From positions 930,001 to 994,000 of the forward strand of contig NZ_JAQSLN010000001.1 of NCBI RefSeq assembly GCF_028649655.1: 64,000 bases of DNA, written 5' to 3'. A program made the translations under genes and the position numbers. The notes beneath the pieces were generated by a model. The model ran no database searches, was not told where the DNA came from, and saw only the letters and a list, made by a program, of their open reading frames with translations. Below, piece by piece: positions 40,115 through 63,269 of this stretch; within the stretch, counting starts at the first letter, position 1, and every line of letters starts with the position of its first letter. The stretch is from Halobacteriovorax sp. GB3 (lineage in GTDB: Bacteria > Bdellovibrionota > Bacteriovoracia > Bacteriovoracales > Bacteriovoracaceae).

Positions 40115-43100
40115 ATGAATTCGGTAGGAATGAAGTTAAATACTTTCAAACTTGATCAAACGAATTGGGAAGTCATTGTTAATGAAAACTTCTCACCACT
40201 TTTAGCTGAAAATGACCAATTAAAGTCACTAGCTAGTGACAAATTAAAACAATATATTAACAGTGAATTTAGCGACTTTCGAGTTCAACTAAATTTTTAT
40301 GGTGTGAGTTTACTTTGTGCCTATTTCTTTGAAGAAAAGGTTATAAGAGTTGCCTCATCTCGCCTTAATAGTGAAATGTTTCTTATTCAAGGAAAGCAAA
40401 CGCTAAGCTCTTTCGAAGGTGACCTCTCAAATGATGAGATCTTTCGTGAATATAAAAAACACGCAGAAAAAATCGCAAGCTTAAGCCTAAAAGATTTTCC
40501 AAGTGTTTATGAGCAAGTAACTCATGTCGAAGGACTTGTCGATCTGCTTGATTCTAAGGCAACATCCGAGCTAGGTTTAGCTAAAGTTGAGTCGAAGGCA
40601 GGCGGGCTTATTGAAGCTCTTTTAGTTAAAGTTAATAGTTATTCTCCGAGTCTTTTTGAGAAAATTTCTGATTTTGGTTTAAACTTAACGGCCAATTATG
40701 CACTTCTTCGAGTTCACATGCTGAAGTTCTTGGCGATTCTTCCATCACTTGATCACGATACTCAGGGAGTAGAAGTCAAAAGAATTCTTCTTGAATCTCT
40801 TCGCCGCTTAATCAAAGACTCTAAAAAAGCGAAAAGACTTAAAAAGAAAGGTCAGGAAAAGGCACTACCTTCAAGCTATATTATCGCCGTATATTTTAAG
40901 TTTATTTTCTTTAAATTAATTCCTTCAAAACCACTCGCGCAGTTTGTTCGCTTTTCTGTTCGTTTAATGGCCAAGCGTTTTATTGCTGGAGAAACAATTG
41001 AGACGGCCGAGAAGTCCATTAAGGAACTCGCTTTAACTGGAAGAGATGTTACACTCGATCAGCTAGGGGAGCTTGTTGTCTCTGAGAAAGAAGCTGATCA
41101 CTATTGCAATGAAGTGATTAAACTTATTAAAGGCTTCTCTTTACATGTTAAAAAAGGTGATAAGAACTCTGCTGGAGTCAATCGCGCTCACGTGTCAATT
41201 AAAGTAAGCGCACTTTGTTCTGATTTTAAACCACAGAGTTTTGATTATACTTATAAGCTAGTCGCACCAAGACTTAAAAAAATTCTACTTTGTGCTAAAG
41301 ATGAAGATGTCTTTATCAATATCGATGCTGAACATTATGATTATCGTGATATCGTTTTTAAAGTTTATAAAAAGGTCCTACTTGAGACACCAGAACTTTC
41401 TGATTATAAGGCAACAGGTATTGTTATTCAGGCCTACCTTCGCGATGGACACACTCATTTAAAAGAGATCGTTGAGCTGGCCAAAGAACGTGGTCACACA
41501 ATGCCGATTCGTCTTGTTAAAGGTGCTTACTGGGATGCTGAAACTGTTGAAGCAGACGCTCACAATTTTAATGCTCCAGAGTTTTTAAATAAAGAAGAGA
41601 CAGATCTTCATTTTAGACAAATGATTTTTGAGATCTTCAAGTCATCTCCTCATATTCAACTATGTATTGCTTCTCATAACTTTAGTGACCACTGCTTTAG
41701 TGAGGCCTTAAGAAGTGAGCTATACCCAGATGCTCTTCCGATTGAGCACCAATGTTTACACATGACTTATGAGGCGCTTTCTACTGCTATGGCAAAAATG
41801 GGATGGCCTGTAAGAAATTATGTTCCAATTGGATCGCTTCTTGTTGGAATGGCCTACCTTGTAAGACGTATAATGGAAAATTCATCACAAGTGGGTGTTC
41901 TTACTATTATGCGTTCTCATAAAAAGAATATCTCTCTTCAGTCACCAGAGCAAGTGCACAGCGAGAACAAGAAAAATGGAACACTCACGCACGATCAAAC
42001 GGTTAGTGGGTTAACGTCTCAATTTTTTAACGTCACACCACTGCGCTCGTATTTAGATGATCAACGAGTTTGGCTAGAAAATTCTCTGTCAGATTTTAAA
42101 GCTCAACTCGATCAATTCTATTCTAATGATTTTAAAGTATCAGGTGAAGAAGTCTCAATCCTATCGAGTTCCGATCCATCACTTAGTGTAGGTAAAATTC
42201 AGTTTGCTACAAAAGAAGATGCAAATAAAGCTGTAGAGATCGTTGATCAATCTTATAATAGCGGAGAATGGGCAAAGACGAGCTGGATTCATAGAGCGAG
42301 CACTCTTGTTCGCGCCAGTGAAATCATGCTTTCTAGACGTAATGAACTTAGTGCTCTGATTTCATATGAGGCCGGTAAGGCCCTTGATGAATCTCTTGCC
42401 GATGTCGATGAAGCTATCGATTTTTTAAACTTCTACGCTAGAGAAGAGGGGCGTTATCATAAGCATTCAAAAGAAGTTCTTTCTCGTGGAGCCACGGCCG
42501 TTATCGCGCCATGGAACTTCCCTTTGGCAATTCCTTGTGGAATGGCCGTTTCTTCTCTTGTTGCCGGTAATACGGTTATTTTAAAATCAGCAGAACAAAC
42601 TCCGCTGATCGCTCAAGAGCTTGTTAATATTCTCCATCTTGCTGGGGTACCAAAGAATGTATTAATCCACCTTCCTGGACTTGGTGAGATCGTTGGTAAT
42701 GAACTCATTCACCATGAAAGAATTAGCTCTATTGTTTTCACTGGGTCAAAGGCCGTCGGGAAAATTATTGAAAAAGCGGCAAGAGCGAGAGTCTATGAAA
42801 ACAAACTTCATCAACTTTCATATCCTGTGTCTATTATTACTGAAATGGGTGGAAAGAATGCGACAATCGTTACGGCCAACGCTGAATTGGATGAAACGGT
42901 TTCTGGAATTCTCTATTCCGCTTTCGCTCATGCTGGACAGAAGTGTTCGGCCTGTTCAAGAGTGATTGTAGACAATTCTGTTAAAGATAAGCTTATTGCT
43001 CGTTTAAAAGAAGCAGCGAGCGACATTGAAGTTGGTGTAGCATGGAATTATTCAACTTCAATAAACCCTCTCATCACTAAAGAAGATAAAGAGCGCGTTC

Positions 43101-62809: not shown

Positions 62810-62837
62810 TTGGTCATTTTTAGACTCGAGATATAAT
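62810..62837 (+). promoter_or_regulatory. Strong sigma-70 promoter of the unidentified RNA
   Basis: TTGGTC (62810-62815), a 16-base spacer and a perfect TATAAT (62832-62837). It is the best -10 match noted in the window. The predicted start is the A at about 62845. No coding frame of convincing length follows before the terminator. Confidence 0.8.
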
Positions 62838-62844
62838 TGATCTC

Positions 62845-63269
62845 AACTAAAAACCCGTCGAAAGGGCGAGATGTAGCGAAAGCTTATTCGAGCAACGTTT
62901 TTATCCTAAGGGGTGATACCTAGAGCGGATTAAAAACTACCGAAACGGTAAAAGCAGCTTTCTTTACAATTGGAGATCATGGTGATTTTCAGTTGAAAGA
63001 CATGCGGGTCATAGAGGTGTGGTGAGCACTTCTTTGAAAGAAAGTTTTGTTTTTGGGGGTGATGATTGGGACCATAGCTTATTGGTGACATTCACGAGAC
63101 ATTCACCGAGTTCGTTTCTAAGGATTAATTCCTCTTAAAGTTTTGTGAGGAAATCTGCTTACCGGGAGCACTGGAAACGTCCTCAGAGTAGACTCTGTCG
63201 AGAGTTCTCTACTTACAAGCATGAGATTAATTTAAGATGGCCAGGTGAAATCCCTGGCCTTAGTTTTTT
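62845..63269 (+). ncRNA. Unidentified long structured non-coding RNA (about 425 nt)
   Basis: The stretch has a perfect promoter, no credible ORF and a rho-independent terminator. Local pairings are dense: AGC-GAAA-GCT (62875-62884, a GNRA loop), GTTTTTATCC with GGATTAAAAAC (62897-62906/62927-62937), TACCG-AAA-CGGTA (62938-62950), GGTGA with TCACC (63084-63088/63103-63107), TTCCTC with GAGGAA (63129-63134/63147-63152), and GTAGA-CTCT-GTCG-AGAG..TCTAC (63188-63212). I could not match it to tmRNA (no tag frame or TPsiC-like box), RNase P RNA (no GAGGAAAGTCC box), 6S, SRP or c-di-GMP riboswitch signatures. It may be a lineage-specific abundant RNA. Secondary structure was judged by eye. Confidence 0.7.
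63239..63269 (+). terminator. Terminator of the unidentified RNA
   Basis: GGCCAGG (63239-63245), seven-base loop, CCTGGCC (63253-63259), then TTAGTTTTTT. It overlaps the stop codon of the convergent small gene by two bases. Confidence 0.9.

Follow-up and report, generated by a model that had tools for sequence, protein, structure and literature searches.

The interval 62810–63269 of the window, by which we mean the whole 64,000-nt stretch analysed here (Halobacteriovorax sp. GB3, GCF_028649655.1, contig NZ_JAQSLN010000001.1, positions 930,001–994,000 of the forward strand), very probably encodes an independent non-coding RNA with an aptamer derived from GEMM-I, the c-di-GMP-I riboswitch class. 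Farther downstream it carries a Shine–Dalgarno-like sequence and a three-codon mini-ORF, which in syntenic relatives varies in phase with its codons. The best explanation of these features is a stand-alone RNA of roughly 430 nt with a predicted regulatory role, of the type of merRNA from Bdellovibrio. A preliminary description of this DNA had proposed an independent, structured, lineage-specific non-coding transcript, and the RNA's own promoter, the lack of an ordinary ORF, the terminator, covariation and syntenic relatives all bear this out. It had seen no GEMM signature and no known class, which does not hold for the 5′ third, a divergent GEMM-I aptamer, and it overlooked the ribosome-binding sequence and mini-ORF at 63055–63077. 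The features are collected in the table.

Table. Features of the RNA locus in window coordinates.
Feature	Position	Strand	Details and basis
Promoter TTGGTC-N16-TATAAT	62810–62837	+	−35 box 62810–62815, −10 box 62832–62837; from sequence
Closing helix, 5′ strand ATCTCA	62840–62845	+	Pairs with TGAGAT 63222–63227; predicted by folding
Divergent c-di-GMP-I (GEMM-I) aptamer	62848–62956	+	Model R1, covarying helices, relatives above the RF01051 cut-off
P1, CCGT with ACGG	62855–62948	+	62855–62858 with 62945–62948; pairing in 94.5% of cells (32 sequences)
Ligand-site G (Vc2 G20 equivalent) and P2 bases G21/C22	62865; 62866–62867	+	G invariant in 33/33 aligned sequences
P2 hairpin	62868–62891	+	GAAA tetraloop 62878–62881; flanks GA 62868–62869 and GA 62890–62891
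Ligand-site A (A47 equivalent)	62894	+	Invariant in 33/33
P3 stem-loop, base GTTTTT/AAAAAC	62897–62938	+	Includes CCTAAG (tetraloop receptor, 5′ half)
Ligand-site C (C92 equivalent)	62940	+	Invariant in 33/33
Long-range helix P4	62956–63046	+	AGCTTTCTTT 62956–62965 with AAAGAAAGTT 63037–63046; partner-swap test
GCGGGT	63004–63009	+	Complementary to ACCCGT 62853–62858 (overlaps P1); complementarity conserved in relatives
Hairpin P6	63013–63034	+	Conserved GUGGUGAGC apex; partner-swap test
Extended Shine–Dalgarno-like GGGGGTGAT	63055–63063	+	Position kept in relatives (GGGAGG/AGGAGG)
Mini-ORF TTG GGA CCA TAG (start-Gly-Pro-stop)	63066–63077	+	Codon pattern of relatives
ACATTCA, two copies	63088–63105	+	Sequence comparison; often found 3′ of the mini-ORF in relatives
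Stretch 80% identical to RNA of Bacteriovorax sp. BSW11_IV	63172–63257	+	blastn
Intrinsic terminator	63239–63269	+	Stem 63239–63259, 7 pairs (6 G-C), then TTAGTTTTTT

The −10 box matches the consensus fully and would place the transcription start at about 62842–62845. The −35 box is weak, with 3 of 6 consensus positions, and the pair of boxes is absent from the list returned by a promoter scan of the window; the earlier term "perfect promoter" is therefore overstated and fits the TATAAT element only. No credible ORF had been noted in the unit, and indeed the two overlapping ORFs of 53 and 66 aa are unsupported by the relatives. The GNRA hairpin of the preliminary description is C(GAAA)G at 62877–62882. 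The + strand folds with a z-score of −3.6 and the − strand with −2.8, and none of 100 shuffled sequences folded equally well. The rho-independent terminator is likewise as described. The same layout of promoter, RNA and terminator is common to the syntenic relatives, most of which have a sigma70-like promoter, often TTGAYT/TTGACA-N17-TA...T, at a distance of 5–95 nt before the aptamer, as well as a terminator 270–500 nt past the aptamer start. Because these relatives keep the layout and the helices covary, we regard the unit as real rather than a chance arrangement. The ATCTCA/TGAGAT ends recur in the sister species Bacteriovorax sp. BSW11_IV, whose RNA has no aptamer.

An Rfam scan of the region at gathering and relaxed thresholds, up to E = 10, returned chance matches alone and thus assigned no known class to the window sequence itself; the GEMM-I model RF01051 was not listed up to that E value, and its gathering cut-off was not reached. 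RNase P RNA, tmRNA and 6S RNA, which the preliminary description had set aside, can be rejected as identities: the genome has its RNase P RNA and tmRNA elsewhere (C4:280225 and C1:168199, respectively), and the 6S model RF00013 has no match in window or genome at E ≤ 1. For SRP RNA, likewise set aside there, no Rfam model gave a match to this part of the window at E values up to 10. When the RNA was compared by blastn with 59 relatives, just one short match was obtained, at the 3′ end, in the sole sampled congener, BSW11_IV.

Relatives were found by synteny. The upstream gene, which we take to encode a DUF4416-like protein, was used to fetch the region from 115 family genomes, many of which contain a related RNA of 400–600 nt at the same place before a gene that we presume from its sequence to be pheS; the name hldE used below is our assignment on the same basis. 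At the start of one fetched locus (L026, genome G064, positions 1–199, − strand) lies a tmRNA gene (54.1 bits). Two of the relatives exceed the RF01051 cut-off of 35 bits (G132 with 38.5 and G007 with 36.5 bits), and further ones match it less strongly. A covariance model, R1, built from ten relatives with the window excluded, matches the window at 62848–62956 with 61.9 bits (E = 3.2e-13). R1 has a second match in the window, at 42758–42856 (E = 0.002), which we regard as chance because it falls within a gene coding for 1392 aa. R1 is positive in 44 of 129 family genomes, about a third, with one copy each except for two in G106, and in 48 of 369 genomes across the phylum.

The alignment supports the GEMM junction of P1, P2 and P3. 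With the structure drawn by hand onto 32 distinct sequences, 96.5% of cells are paired, and pairing falls to 31–41% when the structure is slid along the alignment; two-sided changes occur in 111 cells, versus 29.5 ± 5.0 in shuffles. Covariation is seen in P2, including its pair 62867–62892 (C-G/U-A/U-G), and in P3 (97% paired, two-sided changes in 4 of 5 pairs); P1 varies little and shows no two-sided changes among the 32 sequences. The bases equivalent to G20, A47 and C92, which contact c-di-GMP in Vc2 (PMC4744006), are retained, and with them the P1/P2/P3 layout and the GAAA loop that the RNA shares with RF01051 and the variant RF03167 (c-di-GMP-I-GGC). In other respects it departs from GEMM-I: the P2 internal loop CAAA/GGGAC is replaced in the family by YGA/GAR, whose GA flanks likely form a tandem G-A element in its stead; among 33 sequences the 5′ GA never varies and the 3′ one hardly does. 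Lost as well is the C44–G83 clamp, an interhelical pair named as a GEMM-I feature (PMC4744006, PMC3764141) and as universal by one of these papers (PMC4744006), since the aligned sequences have no base between GA and R45. The family thus adds a GEMM-I variant without this supposedly universal pair, and such RNAs are mostly missed by Rfam. Unlike GEMM-I members, moreover, the window aptamer lies below Rfam detection and is not upstream of any gene to control.

Because the contact bases are conserved, the aptamer most likely binds c-di-GMP. A G at position 20 favours c-di-GMP over cGAMP, as known from GEMM-Ib, and the genome encodes two GGDEF proteins. Binding may nevertheless be weak or lost, given the missing clamp and the altered 3′ half of the receptor, where UAUGG is replaced by UAGAGCGG in the window; GAAA and CCUAAG are both there. 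A window aptamer that has decayed into a relic without binding, leaving the 3′ domain to work alone in this genus, would agree with an R1 score among the lowest, a weakened P2, the altered receptor and the aptamer-less RNA of the congener. We consider such decay fairly unlikely, as the contact bases, P1, P3, P4 and P6 are all intact despite strong sequence divergence.

Two helices downstream of the aptamer were evaluated by swapping pairing partners between sequences. Native P4 pairing scored 18.7 versus 14.4 ± 0.5 for swapped partners in 35 sequences, and P6 scored 15.4 versus 8.9 ± 0.45; for either helix, 0 of 20000 permutations equalled the native value, with kinship ignored. The complementarity of ACCCGT and GCGGGT possibly marks a pseudoknot or a switch, although its covariation is no better than chance (14.03 native versus 14.10 permuted). 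The ACATTCA motif is also found in aptamer-less RNAs.

The mini-ORF lies after P4, beginning 3–8 nt past the GGAGG element (GGGGGTGAT in the window). An exact start-X-Y-stop frame at a spacing of 4–9 nt is present at 32 of 44 loci, whereas 3.3% would be expected from shuffles. Among these 32, 27 read start-[Gly/Asp/Glu]-Pro-stop and the others start-Gly-[Ile/Lys/Asn]-stop; two further loci (L025 and L068) have mini-ORFs at a spacing of 3, for a total of 34, and the remaining 10 have none. The start is UUG or AUG and the stop UAA, UAG or UGA; the second codon reads GGN or GAY/GAA, the third mostly CCN, and third positions vary freely, in phase with the codons. Judging by genus labels, roughly 12 of 22 genera have the Pro form. 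When whole genomes were searched, the pattern gave 22 matches in 20 of 129 genomes, versus 2 for the reversed pattern, and all but two of the 22 lie at or beside the RNA locus; those two, in G016 (at the start of a coding frame) and on contig C107 of G092, were set aside as coincidental. Conservation as codons, which the preliminary description had held to speak against a structured RNA, is found for the 12 nt of the mini-ORF alone; the RNA as a whole is not conserved in this way.

From this pattern of substitutions we consider translation of the mini-ORF probable within the family. An untranslated element, with GGAGG...UUGGGNCCNUAR serving as a structural or protein-binding motif, could account for a start that is nearly always UUG and for the loci at which GGAGG stands without an ORF. 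The variation, however, sits at the three wobble positions, changes of GGN to GAY/GAA break the GGNCC palindrome, the three stops interchange and AUG replaces UUG, which together make such a motif very unlikely. Folding is uninformative on the accessibility of the Shine–Dalgarno region, for which the predicted unpaired probability is not raised (0.33 versus 0.39 overall); in the window its core reads GGGGG, not GGAGG.

Aptamer and mini-ORF do not always occur together. In G101 and G020 a Shine–Dalgarno sequence and mini-ORF stand between hldE and pheS with no detectable aptamer, so that in Bacteriovoracaceae/Halobacteriovoraceae the minigene, conserved as codons, persists in some genomes that no longer have the aptamer; the congener BSW11_IV has lost both elements and kept the 3′ end. 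In G003 and G071 (L019 and L023) the interval from hldE-DUF4416 to pheS holds a shorter stretch that resembles the RNA and includes TTTTAAGGAGG as well as a hairpin like that of a terminator, but it has neither aptamer nor mini-ORF. Two RNAs of family f24 (L092 and L093) share the layout downstream of the aptamer, with P4 and a UGGUGA hairpin, although their GEMM loop is canonical, and L092 additionally has AAAGGAG...ATG GAG TAG; they may stand midway between ordinary GEMM-I RNAs and the family of the window RNA.

The RNA normally lies between hldE(-DUF4416) and pheS: of the 44 loci, 41 come after hldE and 32 are followed by pheS, which then begins about 300–650 nt past the aptamer start. This arrangement would suit a cis-acting leader of pheST, a riboswitch or attenuator that has become detached from pheS in the window. 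A terminator, however, usually separates the RNA from pheS, and the mini-ORF contains no Phe codons. Furthermore, pheS is not downstream in the window or in several relatives with enough sequence, and at L087 it is upstream on the other strand. Since the window and these relatives lack a downstream pheS, its control is unlikely as a general function, and we regard the leader reading as quite improbable. In one family genome (G059, L146), the sole one with a strong RF01051 match (45 bits), the locus has no hldE, DUF4416 or pheS, and the short form found there has the look of a common leader riboswitch with an ORF behind it.

The preliminary description had pointed to a massively expressed attack-phase RNA of Bdellovibrio, which proved a good lead. 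That RNA, merRNA of B. bacteriovorus HD100, is 445 nt long, likewise contains a c-di-GMP riboswitch and is 5000-fold higher in attack phase (PMC3627812). Karunker et al. 2013 reported it not to be conserved outside Bdellovibrio and proposed that it acts as a c-di-GMP reservoir (PMC3627812). A search of the phylum with RF01051 gave matches in 140 of 369 genomes, which belong to many families and, with few exceptions, have a single copy, so GEMM-I RNAs occur phylum-wide; the match at C1:1073868–1073951 (− strand) of G154, which was taken as HD100, falls within the published merRNA interval. Like merRNA, the window RNA is a stand-alone RNA (about 430–445 nt) of a related predator, with one GEMM-I aptamer, a terminator and no controlled ORF. 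In contrast, the merRNA aptamer is internal (from about nt 235 of 445) and that of the window RNA is at the 5′ end; merRNA is flanked by an ilvE-like aminotransferase gene and mrp, unlike the window locus, and has a 12-codon micro-ORF upstream of its aptamer in place of a start-Gly-Pro-stop ORF. A blastn comparison of HD100 merRNA with the window RNA detected no similarity, leaving just the aptamer type in common. Because the two cannot be aligned by blastn and differ in neighbours and in aptamer placement, we call the window RNA merRNA-like, not merRNA.

A reservoir, in which the RNA mainly binds and stores c-di-GMP and the remainder is scaffold, would fit a stand-alone aptamer RNA that is usually single-copy per genome across the phylum, and the idea was put forward for an RNA that is hugely expressed in attack phase (PMC3627812). 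The downstream domain and mini-ORF are, however, conserved and outlast the loss of the aptamer, which argues that the aptamer is not the sole function, and we hold a reservoir to be unlikely. A literature search found no function of merRNA backed by a test; in light of the window RNA the question becomes specific, namely whether such RNAs combine ribosome docking with a response to c-di-GMP in predators.

The analysis shows a unit that stands by itself, the family to which its aptamer belongs, helices that covary and a mini-ORF that varies in phase with its codons. On this basis we tentatively propose, at somewhat less than even chances, that the RNA senses a ligand and holds ribosomes on its minigene. 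Four points of this scheme are inferred: that the ligand binds, that the mini-ORF is translated, which way the RNA switches and how abundant it is. The divergent GEMM-I domain at the 5′ end would sense c-di-GMP and lead, via P4 and the P6 hairpin, to the Shine–Dalgarno sequence and the three-codon minigene ending in Pro-stop. A ribosome would initiate there and then terminate or drop off slowly, a C-terminal proline being a feature that slows termination. Ligand binding could set the site open or closed through P1 and P4, perhaps with the overlapping CCCGU/CGGG pairing, and the parked ribosome would protect the RNA. If the RNA were abundant, initiating ribosomes and c-di-GMP would be tied up in the non-growing predatory phase.

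Slow termination or drop-off is suggested by the codon pattern together with the published behaviour of minigenes, on which ribosomes are held, stalling at the stop codon or dropping off there, and which protect their RNA or inhibit translation (PMC8708949). Lambda bar and mg2 of the txe leader share the strong Shine–Dalgarno sequence, the ORF of 2–3 codons and the slow termination or drop-off (PMC8708949), but they are mRNA leaders or phage elements, whereas that of the window belongs to a structured stand-alone RNA and has a ligand aptamer next to it. A stronger version, in which an abundant non-coding RNA acts as a c-di-GMP-gated ribosome trap, its Shine–Dalgarno/Pro-stop minigene sequestering ribosomes in attack phase, with the minigene as the family's ancestral core and the aptamer as a controller that can be lost, is speculative and has, in our judgement, a rather low chance of being right.

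Elsewhere in the phylum, in two or three other families (L139–L141, L143 and L144), a single GEMM-I RNA lies just 5′ of a queE-like (radical SAM) frame, with a terminator-like hairpin between the two; cis control and a stand-alone RNA are both possible there. In Bdellovibrio, merRNA contains a conserved micro-ORF of 12–14 codons, usually with a near-perfect Shine–Dalgarno sequence. It is located 5′ of the aptamer; the 2013 paper had found no conserved ORF downstream of the riboswitch (PMC3627812). Its pattern is ...[HYF][DENS]H[HRN]D[EDKG].[PL]K-TGA, with MRTHEHHDDELK as the HD100 version, and it was found at 19 of 24 Bdellovibrionaceae loci (L129, which is HD100 merRNA, L130, L131, L171–L183, L185, L186 and L189), with an invariant His and Asp encoded by synonymous codons.
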